From Arthrobacter globiformis (lineage in GTDB: Bacteria; Actinomycetota; Actinomycetes; Actinomycetales; Micrococcaceae), in the NCBI RefSeq assembly GCF_030818015.1, contig NZ_JAUSZX010000001.1:2418001-2482000 (forward strand): a stretch of DNA of 64,000 nucleotides. Reading direction: 5' to 3'. Position numbers and translations under genes: made by a program. The notes under the pieces were generated by a model, which did no database searches, was not told the DNA's origin, and worked only from the letters and a program-made list of their open reading frames with translations. This document shows, in pieces, positions 47,329 to 61,896 of this stretch (its first letter is position 1; the number at the start of each line of letters is the position of its first letter).

Positions 47329-47423
47329 TTCCTTCGTTATTGAGAAGCGGCTGGGGATGCAGGGGTTTCGGCGGCTCCCTGCGACTTGCATGACCCTTCT
47401 CCATCACCCAGGGCGGTGGGACG

Positions 47424-47660
47424 ATGAATTCCATGAACGAGAGCCAGCTACCGGGTGCGCCGCCGGCGTCTCCTAGCGGGGCAGGAAATCACGAGCACCC
47501 GGCGCATGCAGGGAATCACGGAATACTGTCCACACAACAACTGCCTGCCGTGGGCCGAAGGCGACGGGACGCTGAAGAGAAACTCGAGCAGCACCAGCAA
47601 GACGCCCGGCATAAAACCGGACCGGAAAACGGCGCCGACGACGCGACGGCCCAGCAGTGA
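47424..47660 (+). CDS. small hydrophilic hypothetical protein (left-arm copy)
   Basis: A 78-residue frame rich in Pro, Gly, Gln, His and charged residues (for example DAEEKLEQHQQDARHKTG), with no domain or membrane segment, probably disordered. The ATG at 47424 has the purine-rich GGTGGGACG before it. It is present unchanged in the right arm. It may be a real small gene preceding the 250-residue gene. Confidence 0.45.
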   Translation: MNSMNESQLPGAPPASPSGAGNHEHPAHAGNHGILSTQQLPAVGRRRRDAEEKLEQHQQDARHKTGPENGADDATAQQ

Positions 47661-47707
47661 CAATTGCGGCAGGTTCCCGCCGTGTGACCGGTGGGTAGAA
47701 TCGCTGG

Positions 47708-48460
47708 ATGCCTGTCACACGCAATGTCGCCTGGGACGGGCGTCTGGAGTCCTTCAAGGGCAGGGATGCGACGCATTATGTGACCACGGCGGCAGCGATC
47801 GCCACCACATGCGCTGTATGCCGCCGGCCGCTGCAGCCCGACGAACCTCTGTCATTGAGCGTGGATATCATCGAGAGCACGGCCCCGGACGGGACGGAGT
47901 ACGTCACGTTCGTTGACTATGTCTGCCACCGGCAGTGCAGCGAACCTGGCTTGACCGTGCGCAGGGCACCGTGGAAGCCGGCAGATCTGACCCCTCTCGC
48001 CGCCCGGATGCTACTCACCCAGCAGCCCGATCCCGGCAATCCCGGGATCGTCGTCCCGGTGCTGGCTTACACGCTGGTCCCGGTCGTCGCCTTCCGCGAA
48101 CACGACGGGGAACTGACCTCAGCCCTGGTCTCGATTCTGCTCTCCCACGGCTTCCAGCTGGCCATGAACCCGGACTACACCGACGTCCTGGACCAGGCCA
48201 CCGAGGTAGCCGGCAGCTGCAGCCTGACCGTGACGGGCGGCAACCTTGTCACCCTCAACATCGACGGGGAAACCGTCTACGCGGAGCAGCTTGACCCGGC
48301 GGAGCCGGACGACGCTGAGTGGTTGGAGCAGGCGACAGGAGAGGGCAGCGTCCTGGTCATCGGCGGTGACAACCTGGTCATCACCGAAACCGTGCTGGAC
48401 GTTGATGCCGCCGCATCGCTGGGGACGCTGGTCATCGGAAAAGTCACCGTCCGGTTCTGA
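47708..48460 (+). CDS. uncharacterised zinc-ribbon-like protein, family copy 1
   Basis: A 250-residue protein of no family I recognise. The N-terminus MPVTRNVAWDGRLESFKGRD is shared with two other copies in this window. It has a CAVC pair (about residue 37) and a CHRQC group (about residue 76), likely four zinc ligands. A beta-rich C-terminus follows, with repeated acidic ITETVLDVDAAASLGTLV-like strands. No signal peptide or membrane segment. Strong G/C third-position bias shows it is coding. It lies in the inverted-repeat arm. The role is unknown; neighbours are stress-type genes. Confidence 0.8.
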   Translation: MPVTRNVAWDGRLESFKGRDATHYVTTAAAIATTCAVCRRPLQPDEPLSLSVDIIESTAPDGTEYVTFVDYVCHRQCSEPGLTVRRAPWKPADLTPLAARMLLTQQPDPGNPGIVVPVLAYTLVPVVAFREHDGELTSALVSILLSHGFQLAMNPDYTDVLDQATEVAGSCSLTVTGGNLVTLNIDGETVYAEQLDPAEPDDAEWLEQATGEGSVLVIGGDNLVITETVLDVDAAASLGTLVIGKVTVRF

Positions 48461-48520
48461 CAGGAGCCGTGCCACCATCCCGGCCAGTCAATGGGGTTGA
48501 CCGTGAGCCTGCGTGGGCGG

Positions 48521-52303: not shown

Positions 52304-52418
52304 CTGGCCGGGGGCATGCAGCTGGTCAGCTGCTGCTTCGGCTTTGATGGCCCGGACCCTGTAGTTGCTCTTGTCGTGCCCGCCGGGCCCGCTGAACGAG
52401 CTGGCGGGCAGACTCCGG

Positions 52419-53171
52419 TCAGAACCGGACGGTGACTTTTCCGATGACCAGCGTCCCCAGCGATGCGGCGGCATCAACGTCCAGCACGGTTTCGGTGATG
52501 ACCAGGTTGTCACCGCCGATGACCAGGACGCTGCCCTCTCCTGTCGCCTGCTCCAACCACTCAGCGTCGTCCGGCTCCGCCGGGTCAAGCTGCTCCGCGT
52601 AGACGGTTTCCCCGTCGATGTTGAGGGTGACAAGGTTGCCGCCCGTCACGGTCAGGCTGCAGCTGCCGGCTACCTCGGTGGCCTGGTCCAGGACGTCGGT
52701 GTAGTCCGGGTTCATGGCCAGCTGGAAGCCGTGGGAGAGCAGAATCGAGACCAGGGCTGAGGTCAGTTCCCCGTCGTGTTCGCGGAAGGCGACGACCGGG
52801 ACCAGCGTGTAAGCCAGCACCGGGACGACGATCCCGGGATTGCCGGGATCGGGCTGCTGGGTGAGTAGCATCCGGGCGGCGAGAGGGGTCAGATCTGCCG
52901 GCTTCCACGGTGCCCTGCGCACGGTCAAGCCAGGTTCGCTGCACTGCCGGTGGCAGACATAGTCAACGAACGTGACGTACTCCGTCCCGTCCGGGGCCGT
53001 GCTCTCGATGATATCCACGCTCAATGACAGAGGTTCGTCGGGCTGCAGCGGCCGGCGGCATACAGCGCATGTGGTGGCGATCGCTGCCGCCGTGGTCACA
53101 TAATGCGTCGCATCCCTGCCCTTGAAGGACTCCAGACGCCCGTCCCAGGCGACATTGCGTGTGACAGGCAT
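52419..53171 (-). CDS. uncharacterised zinc-ribbon-like protein, family copy 2
   Basis: Identical in protein sequence to the product of 47708-48460, in the opposite orientation. It carries the same CAVC and CHRQC Cys groups and beta-rich C-terminus. Because the arms are identical it is a recent duplicate, and both copies should be functional if one is. Confidence 0.8.
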   Translation of the reverse strand: MPVTRNVAWDGRLESFKGRDATHYVTTAAAIATTCAVCRRPLQPDEPLSLSVDIIESTAPDGTEYVTFVDYVCHRQCSEPGLTVRRAPWKPADLTPLAARMLLTQQPDPGNPGIVVPVLAYTLVPVVAFREHDGELTSALVSILLSHGFQLAMNPDYTDVLDQATEVAGSCSLTVTGGNLVTLNIDGETVYAEQLDPAEPDDAEWLEQATGEGSVLVIGGDNLVITETVLDVDAAASLGTLVIGKVTVRF

Positions 53172-53218
53172 CCAGCGATTCTACCCACCGGTCACACGGC
53201 GGGAACCTGCCGCAATTG

Positions 53219-53455
53219 TCACTGCTGGGCCGTCGCGTCGTCGGCGCCGTTTTCCGGTCCGGTTTTATGCCGGGCGTCTTGCTGGTGCTGCTCGAGTTTC
53301 TCTTCAGCGTCCCGTCGCCTTCGGCCCACGGCAGGCAGTTGTTGTGTGGACAGTATTCCGTGATTCCCTGCATGCGCCGGGTGCTCGTGATTTCCTGCCC
53401 CGCTAGGAGACGCCGGCGGCGCACCCGGTAGCTGGCTCTCGTTCATGGAATTCAT
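53219..53455 (-). CDS. small hydrophilic hypothetical protein (right-arm copy)
   Basis: Identical to the 78-residue frame at 47424-47660. It lies upstream of the family copy 2 gene on the same strand. Same reservations on coding status. Confidence 0.45.
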   Translation of the reverse strand: MNSMNESQLPGAPPASPSGAGNHEHPAHAGNHGILSTQQLPAVGRRRRDAEEKLEQHQQDARHKTGPENGADDATAQQ

Positions 53456-53686
53456 CGTCCCACCGCCCTGGGTGATGGAGAAGGGTCATGCAAGTCGCAG
53501 GGAGCCGCCGAAACCCCTGCATCCCCAGCCGCTTCTCAATAACGAAGGAACTGAGACGAGGCCCGCCGTGGTTCGATCCGGGCATTCAGAGGTATCCAGA
53601 CGCCCTGAATTGCCGGCCGGTGGCGCGTCTCCTAGCTCCATCGAACCTCTGCCGCAAGAGGCCGATATGGGAGTGCTTCCGCGATG

Positions 53687-54265: not shown

Positions 54266-54520
54266 CTAAACTGCATCCACTGAAGGTTGCGGGAGGGGCG
54301 GGCGCTTCCGTTGCCCATCTCCCCTGCCGGGCCCGGGCACAGGGCGGCCATCCCGGTGGACATCCAGCCCGCCGCCGGTTTCAAACTCGCTCAACTGCTC
54401 TGGCGCGTCGGGACGCAGGGAACCGTAGTTTTGGGACCAGCGGGAGAGTACTTCCGGTCCGCCGGTGCCGTAAAGCCCGCGGGTGAGATGAAGAGTTGCT
54501 AGGGGCAGCGGGCAGGGCAA
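54266..54520 (-). CDS. hypothetical small protein divergent from the cold-shock gene
   Basis: An 84-residue frame with good third-position G/C bias ([20 protein letters not shown] near the start, then [14 protein letters not shown]). A related frame lies at the other cold-shock locus (48707-48934). No domain recognised. The first codons overlap the cold-shock upstream region, so the match may reflect a conserved regulatory leader instead of a protein. Confidence 0.3.
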
Positions 54521-54717
54521 CAGGCACGGTTAAATGGTCCAACTCGGAAAAGGGCTTCAGTTTCATAGCCCCTGATGACGGCTCAGCCGACGTGTTCGCC
54601 CATTACTCCGCGATCGCTTCCAGCGGTTACCGTTCCCTGGAGGAGAACCAGAAAGTCCAGTTCGACGTTGTCGGCGGTCCGAAAGGCCGGCAGGCGGAGA
54701 ACATCCACCCGATGTGA
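54496..54717 (+). CDS. CspA-type cold-shock protein with altered start and RNP1 motif
   Basis: The frame encodes a full CspA fold: [40 protein letters not shown] and [17 protein letters not shown]. Compared with normal CspA (and with the copy at 48713) the ATG start has become AGG, so translation would have to start at an upstream TTG (54496), adding seven residues. RNP1 KGFGFI reads KGFSFI and WFN reads WSN, replacing a nucleic-acid-stacking Phe. It may be an inactive copy. Confidence 0.65.
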
Positions 54718-54738
54718 CCGCTTCCGGAGCGGAAGCGG

Positions 54739-55014
54739 CTAGGTGCCTTCCCCGGGCTGGACTGCGTCGAAGAACCGGTGCTCCGGTGGGGCTGTTTGGG
54801 TTCCGGTTCCTTCCGCCTTGGCCCGGATGAAATCCAGGTCCTTCTGGGAGAGCATCGCCTGGCCGTGCTCGTCACAGTCAAGCCTTACGCCGGTTTCCTG
54901 GCAGAGCTCTTCCGTCATGGTGCGCGGCAGGATCAGGCATCCGGGGTTGTTGGTTAGCCACTGCTGCGTGGCGGGGCTGAGCCGGTCCCAGTTGTCCTTT
55001 ATCTTCATCTCCAT
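54739..55014 (-). CDS. small conserved hypothetical protein
   Basis: A 91-residue acidic protein: IKDNWDRLSPATQQWLTNNP, CLILPRTMTEELCQETG, then SQKDLDFIRAKAEGTG. I recognise the general pattern from actinobacteria (NWDRLxPATxQWLxxNPG) but know no function. ATG 55014 has AAAGG about 8 bases upstream; ATG 55008 is also possible. It converges on the cold-shock gene. Confidence 0.65.
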   Translation of the reverse strand: MEMKIKDNWDRLSPATQQWLTNNPGCLILPRTMTEELCQETGVRLDCDEHGQAMLSQKDLDFIRAKAEGTGTQTAPPEHRFFDAVQPGEGT

Positions 55015-55294
55015 TGATGATGCCTTTCTGAGCTTCTGAGTGTTCCCGGATGGACGAGGGCGATCCCGGGTCCGGTACTCGGAGTTTGCTCAGGATATGC
55101 CAGACAAGCGGCGGGGTATTAGTCGAGGTTTTTCATAAGGTTCGCCGGTAACGCTGGGGGTGGCCGGCGATGGCTTGAGCCCTCTGAGACCTTTGCTTAT
55201 CCCCCCACCGTCGCCGGCACCCAAAGGTTCCGGTGCCGTGGGGTGTGACCGCCGCTAGGAACAGCCCGCGGCGCGGGGCGGTAGTCTGGCAAGC

Positions 55295-56041
55295 ATGCCG
55301 GTCACACGCAATGTCGCCTGGGACGGACGCCTGGAAGCCTTCAAGGGCAGGGACACGGGAGAGTTCGTGGCCCTGGTCGCGGCAGTAGCGAGTGCGTGCG
55401 CGGAGTGCGGGCTGCCCGTGCGGCCGGAGGAGCAACTTTCGCTGATCGTGGACATTACCGAGGGCGCGGACGGCGGCGGGATCGAGTTCCTGGCCTTTGA
55501 CACCTGCATCTGCCACCGGCGCTGCCGGGAACCGGACCTGACGCTGCGGACGGCTGCCGGTGCACCTGATGAGCTCAAGACCATCGGGGCGCGGCTCATC
55601 CTTGGACATCCGGACAGGTCAGGCATTCGGGCGGTTCCGGTGCTGGCCTACACGCTGGCCCCGGTCCTGACGTTCCGTGAGCCCGGCGGTGAACTCACCT
55701 CCGTTCTTGTCTCGGTGCTGATCTCCCACGGCTTCCGGCTGACCATGAGCAGCGACTACGCCGAGATGCTCCGGCATGCCCGGGATGTGCACACCAGTGT
55801 CAGCTGCACCGCCACGGAGGAGGGCCGGGTCTCCCTCCACATCAACGGGGAGCGGATACATTCCCAGCAACTCGATCCGGCGGCTGCGGGGGATGCCGCA
55901 TGGCTGGAAGCGGCCGGGCGTGAAGGCAAGATCCTGGTGATCAGCGGTGACTATCTGAAGATCACAAGCACCGGAGTGAACATCGACGCCGCGGCCCGGC
56001 TCGGCACCCTGGTCACCGGCAACGTCTCCACCGCGACCTGA
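55295..56041 (+). CDS. uncharacterised zinc-ribbon-like protein, diverged family copy 3
   Basis: The 248-residue protein is a clear paralogue of the inverted-repeat genes. The N-terminus is almost the same (MPVTRNVAWDGRLEAFKGRD), the Cys groups are conserved as CAEC and CHRRC, and the middle (AVPVLAYTLAPVLTFREPGG) and C-terminus (NIDAAARLGTLVTGN) align, but much of the rest differs. So an older duplication precedes the recent one. Ribosome site weak. Function unknown. Confidence 0.78.
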   Translation: MPVTRNVAWDGRLEAFKGRDTGEFVALVAAVASACAECGLPVRPEEQLSLIVDITEGADGGGIEFLAFDTCICHRRCREPDLTLRTAAGAPDELKTIGARLILGHPDRSGIRAVPVLAYTLAPVLTFREPGGELTSVLVSVLISHGFRLTMSSDYAEMLRHARDVHTSVSCTATEEGRVSLHINGERIHSQQLDPAAAGDAAWLEAAGREGKILVISGDYLKITSTGVNIDAAARLGTLVTGNVSTAT

Positions 56042-56309
56042 AACGGGAGTCTCATTTCCAGTTTTAAGCTGTGCGGGGCTCTACCTGCCCGCAAGCGGAC
56101 AGAACCCCTTAGCTCAAGCTCTGCGTTCCGCTGCGCTCCGTCGAGGAACCAGTGCTCCTGGCAGTGAAACGTCAGACACGAGACTGCCAGTTGCCCGATC
56201 TGCGACACTTGGTAAGTTTACTGATTATTACCAGATGCCACGGACTTTGGTCCTCGGCCAACCAGATCATCGAGACCAGCAATATCAGCAATGCTAAACA
56301 GGAGGAAGC
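56042..56309. other. upstream region of the acidic small protein
   Basis: No gene supported; it should contain the promoter for 56310. Confidence 0.35.
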
Positions 56310-56492
56310 ATGACACAGGAAAACCACGAGCAGGCTGAACCCGAGATGATTCTCGGCGGCGATTCCGAGGAGTCTGTGCCTGCTTCCTCGGGTTCCGGCC
56401 AGGAAGCCGCAGGCATCCCGAACGGCAGTGGCAACGACCTTCCTCAGGAGAAATCGCCCAATGACGAGGACGAAAGCTTCGACGCCGGATAA
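56310..56492 (+). CDS. small acidic disordered protein
   Basis: A 60-residue protein, starting MTQENHEQAEPEMILGGD, with about a quarter Asp/Glu and no basic cluster, helix or strand pattern; probably intrinsically disordered. The ribosome site AGGAGGAAGC before ATG 56310 is excellent, which supports it as real. Function unknown. It lies 14 bases upstream of the chimeric gene. Confidence 0.7.
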   Translation: MTQENHEQAEPEMILGGDSEESVPASSGSGQEAAGIPNGSGNDLPQEKSPNDEDESFDAG

Positions 56493-56506
56493 GGCGCATC
56501 ATCAGA

Positions 56507-57223
56507 GTGCCGCAACCAGGGAAGCAGCCGGGAACTTCCAATCCTGCGATCAACTCGACTCGGTCGCGAAGCTCTGACACAGCCCGCGGGCCTGCCCTAG
56601 TTACCAGAGCACGTGTCCTCAGTACCGCGTACGAACTGTTTTCCCGGCGGAGTATCCGGGATGTCGGCGTTAACGAGCTGATCGAGACCTCTGGGGTTGC
56701 GAAGTCGACCTTCTACCGGCACTTCCCGTCGAAGGACGACAGCGCGGTCCGCGTGTTCCAGGAATACGCATCTGGGGCTTTTCAAGCCAGGACCCGGTGG
56801 AAAGAATGCCTTGACTACCTGCAACCAGGCAATGTCCTGATGGTTGCAGATCTGACCAGATTGCGCCGCAGCACCGCAGACCTGGCTGACATCGTCACCG
56901 TACTGGGACAGCGGGGGATAGGTTTCCGTTCTCTCGCTGAACCCTGGCTAGACACGACCAGTGCGCACGGCAAATTCATCTTCGACATGTTCGCTTCCCT
57001 AGCAGAATATGAACGGTCCCGACTGTCTGAAAGGACGAAAGCCGGCCTGGCCGCAGCAAAGGCACGTGGGCGGCTCGGCGGCAGGCCACGGTCCATGACC
57101 CCAGGGAAGCTGGAAACCGCCCGGCAGTTGCGCAACGAGGGAAAGACTTTGAAGGAAACGGCTCAGCGGCTCAGCGTTAGCGTTTCATCGCAAACGCGGG
57201 CTCTCTCGCTGCCGGAGACTTAG
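56507..57223 (+). CDS. chimera of a TetR DNA-binding domain and a serine resolvase lacking its catalytic N-terminus
   Basis: The 238-residue product has a TetR-type helix-turn-helix at about 33-76 (ARVLSTAYELFSRRSIRDVG, then VAKSTFYRHFPSKDD). From residue 83 it continues as a resolvase/invertase: VFQEYASGAFQARTRW, VADLTRLRRSTADLADIVTV, FDMFASLAEYERSRLSERTK, AAAKARGRLGGRPRSM and a C-terminal helix-turn-helix. The first 45 resolvase residues, including the nucleophilic Ser, are replaced by TetR. Arg equivalents of R45, R68 and R71 remain. It therefore cannot recombine DNA but has two DNA-binding domains and the resolvase dimer helix. GTG 56507 has a weak ribosome site. Confidence 0.82.
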   Translation: MPQPGKQPGTSNPAINSTRSRSSDTARGPALVTRARVLSTAYELFSRRSIRDVGVNELIETSGVAKSTFYRHFPSKDDSAVRVFQEYASGAFQARTRWKECLDYLQPGNVLMVADLTRLRRSTADLADIVTVLGQRGIGFRSLAEPWLDTTSAHGKFIFDMFASLAEYERSRLSERTKAGLAAAKARGRLGGRPRSMTPGKLETARQLRNEGKTLKETAQRLSVSVSSQTRALSLPET

Positions 57224-57391
57224 GCGCTTCTGTGCACGCGTAGACCGTTCTGGACGGCTTGCGTACGGTTTCCGAACGGTTCCACGCCGTACGGCACTGG
57301 CGGGCGTACGATTCTGCTGCCTTCTCTAGCTAGGACAACTGCGTAGCTGCAACCACAACCAACGCTGGTCACCGAAGTTAGGCACCGGCTT

Positions 57392-57601
57392 CTAGTCGGT
57401 AGTTTCCAGCACGGCCAGCATTTGCCTGGCCACGTCCAGATTATGCACCACCAAGCCCACGGCATTACGTGCCGTTCCGTGCAACTGCTCAGCATCCCTT
57501 GCCAACTTCAGTCGGTCGTCTGCCACCAGCTCGTTGAGCTGGTCCTGGACGTCCAACAGCAGGCGGTAAAGCTCGTCAGCTGTAGCTCTCTCAATGTTCA
57601 T
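57392..57601 (-). CDS. small helical hypothetical protein
   Basis: A 69-residue, mostly helical protein: ERATADELYRLLLDVQDQLN, DRLKLARDAEQLHGTARN, LDVARQMLAVLETTD. The ATG at 57601 has GAAGGGAACC upstream, and composition is that of a real protein (Leu/Asp/Glu heptads, possible coiled coil). No family recognised. Confidence 0.6.
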   Translation of the reverse strand: MNIERATADELYRLLLDVQDQLNELVADDRLKLARDAEQLHGTARNAVGLVVHNLDVARQMLAVLETTD

Positions 57602-58498
57602 TGGTTCCCTTCAATTTCCCCCCGTGCGCCACCCTGGGACGACGCATCTCTCATCGCCATCTCACACCACCAGGCCCACTCTGCCCCGGAACTCAGGATC
57701 AGCCGTATCATCCACCACGGCATCGACACCGGCGAGGTACCGGTCGGACAGCGGAAAGGGACGGAGCCCTGCCCGTGGCCGGCGACCATTCGGCCTCACA
57801 CTTCCGCAATTTCTCAGTCAAAGGGCTTGCGGAATCTGAAACGCGCTGCGGGGACGTCGCCACAGGGTCGGCTATGTGTTCAGCAGCGTCTGGCTTAGGC
57901 ATAGTTGCTCGTTCTCAGGTGAGTTCAGTTCGGGGACCGCGCGGAATGCCGTTGTCCCACAACGGCACAGAACATTCCTCTTGCCTCTTTCGTCACAATA
58001 TTCACACCACAATGCGGAGAAGTTCCTTGTTCCGGCCAGAAACTTTCCCATAAAACTTGACGGTGCGATATGCTTTTCTCCACGGATTAAATGCCGAGGT
58101 GTTGCATGCAGATATCTGCCCAGTGGGCTTAAAGGAAATCCTGATATTTTCCATCGCGGAAGTAAGCCTCTCGGCTGATGGCGTAGTGGGAGTTCGCGAG
58201 GTCATCATGAGTAGGAATAAGTCATTTTTTGTTGGCGTGGATGACAGCGGGCTACAACGACGCAGCCGTTGTCCTCCCCCTCGGGGCCCAGCTGGATGAC
58301 TCGATTTTTCTGGCGGATGGTTTTACATTTCAGCTGGAGCCAGCTTTGGCAGTGCTTGGACGAGTGTCATTCTGTCCGTTGACGGCAAATGTCAAGCCTG
58401 TTAGACCTTCAGGCATGCCGTGGCGTATTGCGAGTTTACTAAGTGGACTCTTATTTGCTGCCAATGAAGGCCAATGTTCAAAGGCGCCACGGCCAGTA
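57602..58498. other. 900-base region without a clear gene, A+T-rich in its second half
   Basis: From about 57980 to 58480 base composition drops well below the surrounding G+C. Only short frames occur (for example 58057-58299 with no ribosome site). The region ends in a good terminator, so something on the plus strand may be transcribed, either a decayed gene or an RNA. Confidence 0.4.
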
Positions 58499-58526
58499 GA
58501 AGCCCTCCCCTTGGGGGTTTCTTTTG
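58499..58526 (+). terminator. intrinsic terminator at the end of the A+T-rich stretch
   Basis: GAAGCCC pairs with GGGTTTC (one G-U), with CCCC/GGGG inside the loop, followed by TTTTG. It faces the plus strand. Confidence 0.65.
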
Positions 58527-58721
58527 TAGTTCTTAGGACCTAGCTCTTGTCCCAGACGGACAATCCCGCGTTTAAGCGCATCCAACTGTCCGTGCGTCCC
58601 TGGTTGCTGGAGGCGCATGCTTGTCACCTGACTGCACAAGCAATACACCCCGTGTAGCGACCGCCCCTCCCGGGCGCGTGATACGTGGTCACGGCAGAGT
58701 GCAGGTCAGGAGGAGGAAATC

Positions 58722-59951
58722 ATGGAACTGGAAAAATACGCTCACTCGCTACCCCGTTGCGCGGTCGTGCTCGGGGCTGTGACGTTACTAGTTGCGGGCT
58801 GCCAGCAGGGAAGTTCCACGCCAAGCCAATCGTCCTCGCAGCCGGCTTCAACCTCGGCCAGCACATCGGAGGGCTCATCCGGGGCCTCCCATCATATGGA
58901 GGGCGGTATCTCACAGGCTGATCCACTGCCTCAAGGTGACCAGCATCCTGCTGAGTTGAGGCCCCAAGAGTTGTATGCACTTGGTGAAAAGTCGGTGTTC
59001 GCGATTGAGGGGCAGCGGCCGGATGACTTCGTAGTGTCTGCCACCGGTTTCCTGGTGGACAAGGAAGGGGGGATGGGTGTCACGAATGCCCATGTAGTGG
59101 AGGGTCTCTCGGCGATTTCTGGCCGATTCAACACCGGCGAGAAGGGGGCTCTTCACGTGATCGCATCGGATCCATGTACGGATCTTGCCGTCGTGCACTT
59201 CTCCTCCGCGCTGCCAAAGCAAACCGAGGCTCTCATCTTCGGCAATTCCGCTGACGTGAAGCCGGGCGATTCTGTGACTGTGCTCGGTTTCCCGGGTACC
59301 GCCACCCAGAACTCTGCGGAACAGAAATTGCTCATCACCTCGGGTCTGGTAAACGCGATAAAGGTGCCGGCCCGGGGTCCTGGCCTGCCTGAATATAAGG
59401 ACACAATCCAGCACGGGGCGACCGTCAATCCCGGGAACTCCGGGGGTCCCTTGCTGGATCACCATGGCCGTATCGTAGGGATAAATACCTTGACCTACTT
59501 GGGCTCGCAGAATGCGCCAGCTCAGGGTCAGTTCTATTCCATATCGAGCGATTCGGCCAAGCGCGAGATCGTCGACAAGCTCCTCAAAGGTGACTCGCCG
59601 AACAACATGGGGTGGGCAGTCGAGGAATATTACCCCGGCTATTTTGCGGCTTTGGACAGCACACGGGGTCCTGCTCTGGACGCCCAGCTGGCGCGGCAAG
59701 GGGTTAAAGGCGGGCTTTACGTCAAGGGGGTCACTGCAGGTGCGGGCGCCAGCAAAGCGGGGATCAAGCCGGGCATGCTGCTGACGCGGTTACAGAATAC
59801 GTCTGTGGCCACTATCGCAAAGATGTGTGACATCACCGAATCCATACTCCCCGGCGCGACTGCCGTGGTTGACGGGCTCAACCTCCTCTCAGACCCTGCC
59901 AAATTTGACCAGCAGTTCCATGTGGAGTTCGTGGTGCCCGGCAAGCACTGA
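58722..59951 (+). CDS. lipoprotein trypsin-like serine protease with PDZ domain (HtrA-like)
   Basis: The 409-residue protein has a lipoprotein signal (LLVAGC, lipid Cys27) and a Ser/Thr-rich linker to about residue 65. A trypsin-like domain follows with the full triad: His124 in TNAHVVEG, Asp154 in CTDLAVVHF, Ser240 in VNPGNSGGPLLD. A PDZ domain covers about 330-400 (VTAGAGASKAGIKPGMLL). It should be anchored outside the membrane and cleave misfolded or specific proteins. The ATG has AGGAGGA upstream. It converges with the Hsp70-like gene, 15 bases between stops. Confidence 0.9.
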   Translation: MELEKYAHSLPRCAVVLGAVTLLVAGCQQGSSTPSQSSSQPASTSASTSEGSSGASHHMEGGISQADPLPQGDQHPAELRPQELYALGEKSVFAIEGQRPDDFVVSATGFLVDKEGGMGVTNAHVVEGLSAISGRFNTGEKGALHVIASDPCTDLAVVHFSSALPKQTEALIFGNSADVKPGDSVTVLGFPGTATQNSAEQKLLITSGLVNAIKVPARGPGLPEYKDTIQHGATVNPGNSGGPLLDHHGRIVGINTLTYLGSQNAPAQGQFYSISSDSAKREIVDKLLKGDSPNNMGWAVEEYYPGYFAALDSTRGPALDAQLARQGVKGGLYVKGVTAGAGASKAGIKPGMLLTRLQNTSVATIAKMCDITESILPGATAVVDGLNLLSDPAKFDQQFHVEFVVPGKH

Positions 59952-59966
59952 TATCAGGCATCGTCC

Positions 59967-61850
59967 TTATTTGTGCCACCACGAGTACAGTTTGTCCACG
60001 TCAGCGGCATCGGATTCTGCCCTGATCATCATGAGTGACTCGTCTTCGGTCCAGACGAGGTAGTTGGTGCCGTTCTCTGATGCGCCGAGGACTCGTCCCC
60101 TAACCTTCTGCGATTGATCGTCCCGCAGGTGCCATGTTTCCCAACCGGGTGGCTTCGTCGCCGAGCGCGGGCTCGCGTTGAATCGTTTGATGCTGTCGTC
60201 AAAGGCACTGCTCAATGACTGGGCGGATGCGTAGCCGTAGACGTACACCGACGGCCGTTCAATTGAGCTGAAGTTGCTGGTAACGGACGGGCCGCAGATC
60301 AGTCCGCTGCTGGCTCCTGAAAGGTCGTTGTTGCCGACACAACTGTCCGGGGCGATCAGCCCGAGACTGTTGACGCTGGTCAACAGATAGCACTCGCCCT
60401 CCCTCAGGTCCGGTCGTTCCTTGCCTGCGCACTTGCCAGTCGATGCCTCTGTCCGCCCGAATGACGAGGCGTTTACGGCCGGGGGCGGTATCGGTGTCCC
60501 TCCGGAAGACAGCATGACCGCTGCAACAACCAAAGCGGCGGAAGCAGCTGCCCCGGCAGCTAGAAGCACCTTCTTAGGCAGGTGAGGCGTTCGCGGACGG
60601 CCCTTCGTTCCAGAGAAGCGGTGCTGGTACCGGGCTGACAGACGGTGGTGAAGCCTGAAGGGGCCCGTTCGGCCTGATTCCCGTGGTTGGCCTGGTCCCG
60701 TTGTCCCGGCTTCAGGCTCGGGGACCTGGCGGACTTCCGTGCCGGCGGGGTCTCCCCGGGAGGCGGGCGCTTCCAGCGCACCGATGCTGGTGACTTGTTT
60801 CGGATCGCCCATCAGTCCGAGTTTCAGCGGCAGGATTTCGCTGAGTTGGGCTTGCAGGGCCGGGATGTGGCTGGATCCCCCTGTGAGGTAAACACGGTGG
60901 AGTTGCTGCACGGACGGAAGCGCTTCCTCGATGACGTGCTGCACCAATTCCACGGCGCGGCGCAAATGCGGTTCGATGAGGTGCTCAAACTCCCCGCGCG
61001 TCACAGTGCAGACCCATTCGTGGTCCCCGGAATGTATTCCGATTGGGGCTGAACTGTGGAAGCTAAGAGCGTGTTTAGCCTCCCGGATCTGGTCCCGCAA
61101 CACCGCCCTGTCAGCCGCCGAACGCTCCGACTTCAGCCCTTCCAGCAGCTCGTTTTTGCTTTCAGCCGCGAGTTGGGAGTACACCCAGCCCTCTAGCAGG
61201 GCGTCGAAGTCATGGCCGCCCAGCGGGTCGATACCGTCTGCTTTTACGACATGGAAAGCAGGCCCTTCCGGTGTATGGGCAAGTTCCAGCACGGCAGCGT
61301 CACAGGTGCCGCCGCCGAAATCCAGTACGGCTACGTGGGCCCCGGGATCGACGTCGGACGTTGCGGCGTAATGCCATCCGGCCGCGACGGGTTCGGGCAT
61401 CAGAACAAGGCTCTCCTCCAAGATGCCGGCTTTGAGTGCTGCGGCAGTCAGACGTCGCTTCATGTATTCATCCCAAGCTTCGGGGTGGGTCAGGACAACG
61501 CGTGCCGGTGTCCCGCCGCCGACGTACCGCTTGGCTTGGCCGAAAACGTAAGTCAATACCGCAGCGACAAGCTCGACTGGGTCCCAAATTTGGCTGCCCA
61601 GGACCACCGCTTCCTCGGCCAGTCGGCGCTTTGGTGTCGGCTCGAAGGCCGCCGGATAGATACCCGCGATTCGGAGGGCGGCTTCACCCGTGACGATTTC
61701 GCCGTTGTAAGCCGCTACGCAGGAGGGAATGGCGTCCGAACGTGCTCCCAAACGCAGAACAACTACGCCTCCTCCGTCCTGGGCGACGGCGGCCGCTGTG
61801 TTTGAGGTGCCAAAGTCGATGGCCAAGCGCCAAGGGATTCCTTCCGTCAT
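59967..61850 (-). CDS. Hsp70/DnaK-like ATPase with a C-terminal transmembrane segment and extracellular domain
   Basis: The 627-residue protein has an actin/Hsp70 ATPase domain: phosphate-1 LAIDFGTSNTAAAVA (residues 9-23), phosphate-2 VLDFGGGTCDAAVLE (175-189) and adenosine YLTGGSSHIPALQ (321-333). The usual substrate-binding domain is absent. Instead there is a Pro/Gly-rich linker (360-425), one membrane helix (about 427-448) and an outer domain of about 175 residues with Cys pairs and no recognised fold. ATG 61850 is used (61865 is alternative). It is last in an operon with a GrpE-like protein and a dynamin-like GTPase. Confidence 0.88.
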   Translation of the reverse strand: MTEGIPWRLAIDFGTSNTAAAVAQDGGGVVVLRLGARSDAIPSCVAAYNGEIVTGEAALRIAGIYPAAFEPTPKRRLAEEAVVLGSQIWDPVELVAAVLTYVFGQAKRYVGGGTPARVVLTHPEAWDEYMKRRLTAAALKAGILEESLVLMPEPVAAGWHYAATSDVDPGAHVAVLDFGGGTCDAAVLELAHTPEGPAFHVVKADGIDPLGGHDFDALLEGWVYSQLAAESKNELLEGLKSERSAADRAVLRDQIREAKHALSFHSSAPIGIHSGDHEWVCTVTRGEFEHLIEPHLRRAVELVQHVIEEALPSVQQLHRVYLTGGSSHIPALQAQLSEILPLKLGLMGDPKQVTSIGALEAPASRGDPAGTEVRQVPEPEAGTTGPGQPRESGRTGPFRLHHRLSARYQHRFSGTKGRPRTPHLPKKVLLAAGAAASAALVVAAVMLSSGGTPIPPPAVNASSFGRTEASTGKCAGKERPDLREGECYLLTSVNSLGLIAPDSCVGNNDLSGASSGLICGPSVTSNFSSIERPSVYVYGYASAQSLSSAFDDSIKRFNASPRSATKPPGWETWHLRDDQSQKVRGRVLGASENGTNYLVWTEDESLMMIRAESDAADVDKLYSWWHK

Positions 61851-61896
61851 GGCTTCGTCCTTCACTCGTTGTCGGCAGGGATACGGGCTTCGGTGT

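Follow-up and report, generated by a model that had tools for sequence, protein, structure and literature searches.

A TetR-family regulator gene and a serine resolvase gene are joined in one open reading frame in Arthrobacter globiformis, within the window (the whole stretch of 64,000 nucleotides that was analysed). The fusion of the two halves is genuine and, as far as seen, singular. It very probably goes back to a single illegitimate join, a by-product of gene decay, and probably has no kept function.

Architecture of the fused frame

The first-pass annotation had described a TetR helix-turn-helix (HTH) that passes in frame into a serine resolvase, and Pfam agrees: TetR_N (PF00440) covers residues 38-78 of the fusion (E 1.5e-11, 44.3 bits versus a cut-off of 24), and is followed by a truncated Resolvase domain (PF00239) at residues 81-189 (E 5.8e-28, profile positions 35-144/145) and by HTH_7 at residues 192-227 (E 7.1e-8). 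The reported open frame of 238 codons was likewise confirmed from its GTG start to its stop codon (Table 1). It is free of stops and frameshifts, while the resolvase part meets a stop after 32 codons in one of its other two frames and after 23 in the other. On the opposite strand there are four stops in the one register compared; putative ORFs of 75 and 106 aa lie inside 56507-57223 and two more (120 and 91 aa) extend across its ends.

Table 1. Positions of the fused gene, its parts and related features. Plain coordinates are those of the window; coordinates with C1 or C3 are resolvase copies elsewhere in the same genome.
Feature	Position	Strand	Remarks
Fused ORF	56507..57223	+	238 codons; GTG start at 56507, stop codon ending at 57223
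TetR-family 5' part	56507..56740	+	78 codons; from Pfam and DNA identity to G021 and G128
Joint codon AGC (serine)	56741..56743	+	GGN here in the printed resolvase loci, TTG in both TetR relatives
Resolvase 3' part with HTH_7	56744..57223	+	from the equivalent of gamma-delta residue 30; T92F, G120R, L157F (fusion numbering)
Left part of TetR module	56078..56740	+	whole module about 1.1 kb in G021 and G128
Small acidic ORF	56310..56492	+	60 aa; no match in Pfam; precedes TetR and is common to the intact modules of G021 and G128
Resolvase copy L004	C1:2257737		open from its start; 90% identical over fusion residues 79-235
Resolvase copy L002	C3:55516		extra base near the start gives a frameshift; adjoins an IstB (IS21 helper) gene and a fragment of an IS21 transposase
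Resolvase copy L003	C3:67878 (about 67.8-68.5 kb)		frameshifted, 5' end cut

The joint is sharp, with TetR-like DNA ending at 56740 and resolvase-like DNA beginning at 56744. Of 33 resolvase rows (L033 and L038 being one place), 29 begin their homology at 56744, two at 56742, and one each at 56753 and 56796. The DNA identity of these rows to the fused part is 69-82%, or 75-82% without L036 and L037. By eye, no microhomology is seen at the joint beyond a base or two shared; the TetR gene of G021 reads on TTGATCAAGG where the resolvases have GGN. Three 15-nt direct repeats are found just past the fusion (57256-57313). The joint is known from one contig only (protein P0002), as an assembly or sequencing chimera would be. 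However, it lies inside a 4.94-Mb contig of a three-contig genome, and neither half is matched elsewhere in that genome at more than 92% protein identity, making such an artefact hardly credible.

In serine resolvases, the catalytic serine lies in an N-terminal YARVS-type segment. The fusion lacks this segment, as the first-pass annotation had noticed: the Pfam match begins at profile position 35, and in the alignment to gamma-delta resolvase, made against solved structures, the first aligned position is query residue 79, equivalent to residue 29. From what is known of the family, no recombinase activity is expected of a fusion protein that lacks the catalytic serine. The other resolvase features that had been named, the arginines, the dimerisation helix and the C-terminal HTH, are all retained: R95, R118 and R121 correspond to gamma-delta arginines 45, 68 and 71 (hand-counted on the alignment), which we take to have a role in the active site; a long helix at residues 155-186 is seen in one structure model; and HTH_7 is found by Pfam. 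The rest of the domain is thus present, but with a G120R change between R118 and R121, which the first-pass annotation does not mention, at a position that is Gly in 73 of 73 other rows. Further changes are G79S (G in 73/73 others), T92F (T in 68/73) and L157F (L in 68/73). P0007, a small serine resolvase/invertase (PF00239) of 197 aa from the Arthrobacter group, is about 90% identical to the fusion from residue 79-80 on; unlike the fusion, it carries an N-terminal GYARVSTRGQS segment and keeps the conserved Gly at position 120.

The TetR half is also incomplete. TetR/AcrR regulators have a C-terminal domain for ligand binding and dimerisation, and this domain is absent from the fusion, in which residues 79-216 of the intact relative P0113, a TetR/AcrR-family regulator of Arthrobacter globiformis with 216 aa, are replaced by resolvase sequence. 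The first 78 residues of the two proteins differ at four places, and both have a GTG start and a small ORF upstream, but P0113 runs on to its full 216 aa whereas the fusion departs after KDD. Binding of a TetR operator would be weak at most, because TetR's own dimer domain is gone.

Search for the same junction in other genomes

Independent homologues with the same junction would have pointed to a maintained architecture, and none was found in the protein, plasmid, genus, family, GTDB or viral results listed. Among the 120 proteins listed of 2045 relatives, the sole carrier of PF00440 plus PF00239 is the window's own P0002. In the genus (206 genomes searched, 173 with a match at E <= 1e-15) only the query's own row has the joint among the matches listed, in an order in which a similar fusion would rank near the top. 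The same is true of the matches listed for the family (395 genomes, 59 with a match at E <= 1e-30), the two genome sets being partly the same. None of 60 loci from GTDB genomes carries the joint, and the 13 pattern matches in viral contigs include no relative. Among the titles listed by a literature search, with subscription papers mostly out of its scope, none points to such a TetR-resolvase fusion.

Several matches appeared to span both halves. Sixteen foreign rows among the matches listed start no later than residue 75 and extend into the resolvase part, and all 16 were fetched. The plasmid search covered at least 5000 records, and in at least 13 of them the match spans 80% or more of the query; nine of these are listed, and the five other than H25-H28 were opened. 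H37 is a further plasmid match, over residues 54-233. All 21 opened rows (16 foreign and five plasmid) are resolvases whose N-terminal domain is complete, starting at profile position 1-5, with no TetR_N ahead of it. L102 has a sub-cut-off TetR_N match, placed in its C-terminal HTH. Four weak GTDB rows that extend past residue 84 (L090, L091, L092 and L096) have TetR_N and no Resolvase match in Pfam. The row from the same genome that spans residues 41-235, and so both halves, is a frameshifted resolvase copy. P0005, the plasmid copy of the same genome (L003), is not a further fusion, as the DNA upstream of its GAVRVF motif is resolvase in another frame; P0019 was judged, from the protein sequence alone, to be resolvase upstream too. 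P0053 and P0075 are likewise resolvases; they are truncated at a later point, have different N-termini and show no Pfam match to TetR.

Parental genes and probable route of origin

Intact counterparts of the TetR half are found in two other genomes. Positions 56093-56740 are 96% identical in DNA to a stretch of G021 that encodes a 216-aa TetR, and positions 56078-56740 are 88% identical to G128; both matches stop at 56740. The intact modules of G021 and G128 match one another over 1.1 kb, from a near-identical left edge to just beyond the TetR stop. The first-pass annotation had suggested a maintained two-headed DNA-binding protein or a dominant-negative recombinase partner, and neither the lack of a homologous junction in the results listed nor the full-length TetR in these modules agrees with that. 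Its own mark of a one-off deletion was an intact TetR and resolvase at the same site in related strains. The intact TetR does lie in the same upstream gene module in two genomes; this correspondence holds for the module and not for the chromosomal locus, as the G021 and G128 modules may lie at another chromosomal site.

In G021, the TetR gene (L038:5522-6172) is followed about 10 kb downstream, on the same strand, by a whole resolvase gene (L038:15872-16474) with an IS30 transposase gene directly before it. A deletion between two such same-strand genes would give the fusion. With no more than 78% identity to the fused part, this resolvase serves as a model of the arrangement and is not the donor; no donor resolvase was found among the fetched loci, where the best DNA match is 82%. 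The fusion probably arose by a deletion running from a TetR gene into a resolvase gene on the same strand, which would have placed the first 78 TetR codons ahead of the last 160 or so codons of a serine resolvase. With the joint in frame, as about one in three of any such joints would be, the outcome would have been a chimera with an open frame that follows the TetR leader and start.

The genome itself has four close resolvase copies: one open, two frameshifted (read by eye) and this fusion, which shows that its resolvase copies are decaying. In L003, about 50 bp of the copy's own 3' end appears, by eye, to be repeated upstream of the broken start. Since the open copy at C1:2257737 is so similar to the resolvase part, and the long helix (in the first structure model) and HTH_7 are retained, the fusion could in principle act as its dominant-negative partner, with the long helix pairing the two proteins in dead heterodimers. 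This is highly improbable, as such pairing would require a folded dimer interface in a domain that has lost its first part, the joint is not seen elsewhere in the results listed, and the two other copies in the genome are simply broken.

Partial or split matches to P0113-family TetR are found on C1 at 2272353, 2286718, 2287704 (with a TGA), 2391531, 2532654/2532745 and 2674658/2674899, all within about 0.4 Mb around the window (C1 2.27-2.68 Mb). The window also contains an inverted repeat of 1159 nt, the arms of which (47329-48487 and 52392-53550) are 99% complementary and 3.9 kb apart. Pfam has no match for either a 250-aa frame in one of the arms (52419-53171) or its diverged relative at 55295-56041. 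Genes for a cold-shock protein, a trypsin-like protease and Hsp70-like proteins are found near the fusion (54496-61865).

Selection and structure of the fused protein

The resolvase part has dN/dS values of 0.02-0.06 against its relatives (defined for 25 of 28 pairs), similar to those of intact pairs (median 0.034, 326 pairs). This low ratio is taken to stem for the most part from the period that preceded the join. Alignments A3 and A4 were excluded due to misplaced TetR rows. Of ten changes found in the fusion by comparison with the other rows, the six at residues 44-78 were set aside, as TetR is probably aligned there under the resolvase N-terminus. For the counts that follow, L021, L027, L035 and L036 (gaps) and L033 (a duplicate of L038) were dropped. 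In columns conserved in at least 95% of the 28 other copies, the fusion has three changes, compared with 14 in L037 and four in L025; L029, L024 and L034 also have three each, and the remaining copies 0-1. Private base changes, with L037 left out as well, are three non-synonymous (two of them in one codon) to one synonymous in the fusion and 30:38 in the 27 others (Fisher p 0.25). Relaxed selection on the fusion is therefore possible, but not proven by these alignments. In TetR codons 1-78 there are three synonymous and four non-synonymous base changes relative to G021, and 14 and nine, respectively, relative to G128.

Two AlphaFold2 models were made. In model 1 (mean pLDDT 75.4, pTM 0.56), most of the resolvase part is confident, with input rows that included the missing N-terminal segment. 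A strand at TetR residues 42-48 of this model was taken as an artefact, probably because MAFFT set TetR residues under the resolvase N-terminus in alignment A2. Model 2, made from 19 rows with the retained part only and no intact control, has a pTM of 0.29 and a mean pLDDT of 53.9, with block means of 38-54 over residues 81-190.

The open frame, the dN/dS shared with intact pairs, the two counts without a signal of relaxed selection and the missing donor are points against reading the fusion as a remnant. The open frame would also suit a working chimeric repressor, in which the TetR head sits on its operator while the dimer helix of the resolvase takes the place of TetR's dimer domain and the C-terminal HTH may or may not add a second contact. 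In its favour, too, the leader and start region are retained, and TetR residues 38-78 have no change private to the fusion when compared with both G021 and G128. Such a repressor is nevertheless very unlikely, given that the joint occurs in one genome only among the results listed and that the resolvase part begins only at gamma-delta residue 29. Model 2 may weigh weakly in the same direction, its low pTM coming from few rows, and the more confident model 1 comes from rows with the missing segment. The case for a dead gene is built on the missing serine segment, on G120R and on a joint seen only once, and from these we infer that the fusion has no kept function.

There is a very slight chance that the TetR leader drives expression of the chimera and that this is a new repressor with a recombinase-derived dimer arm, caught soon after its birth in a single lineage. 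An in-frame chimera of this kind would be listed by a domain search as a new architecture, though it most likely comes from genome decay. If the protein works, a repressor would have gained a recombinase dimer arm in one step; nothing here requires that.
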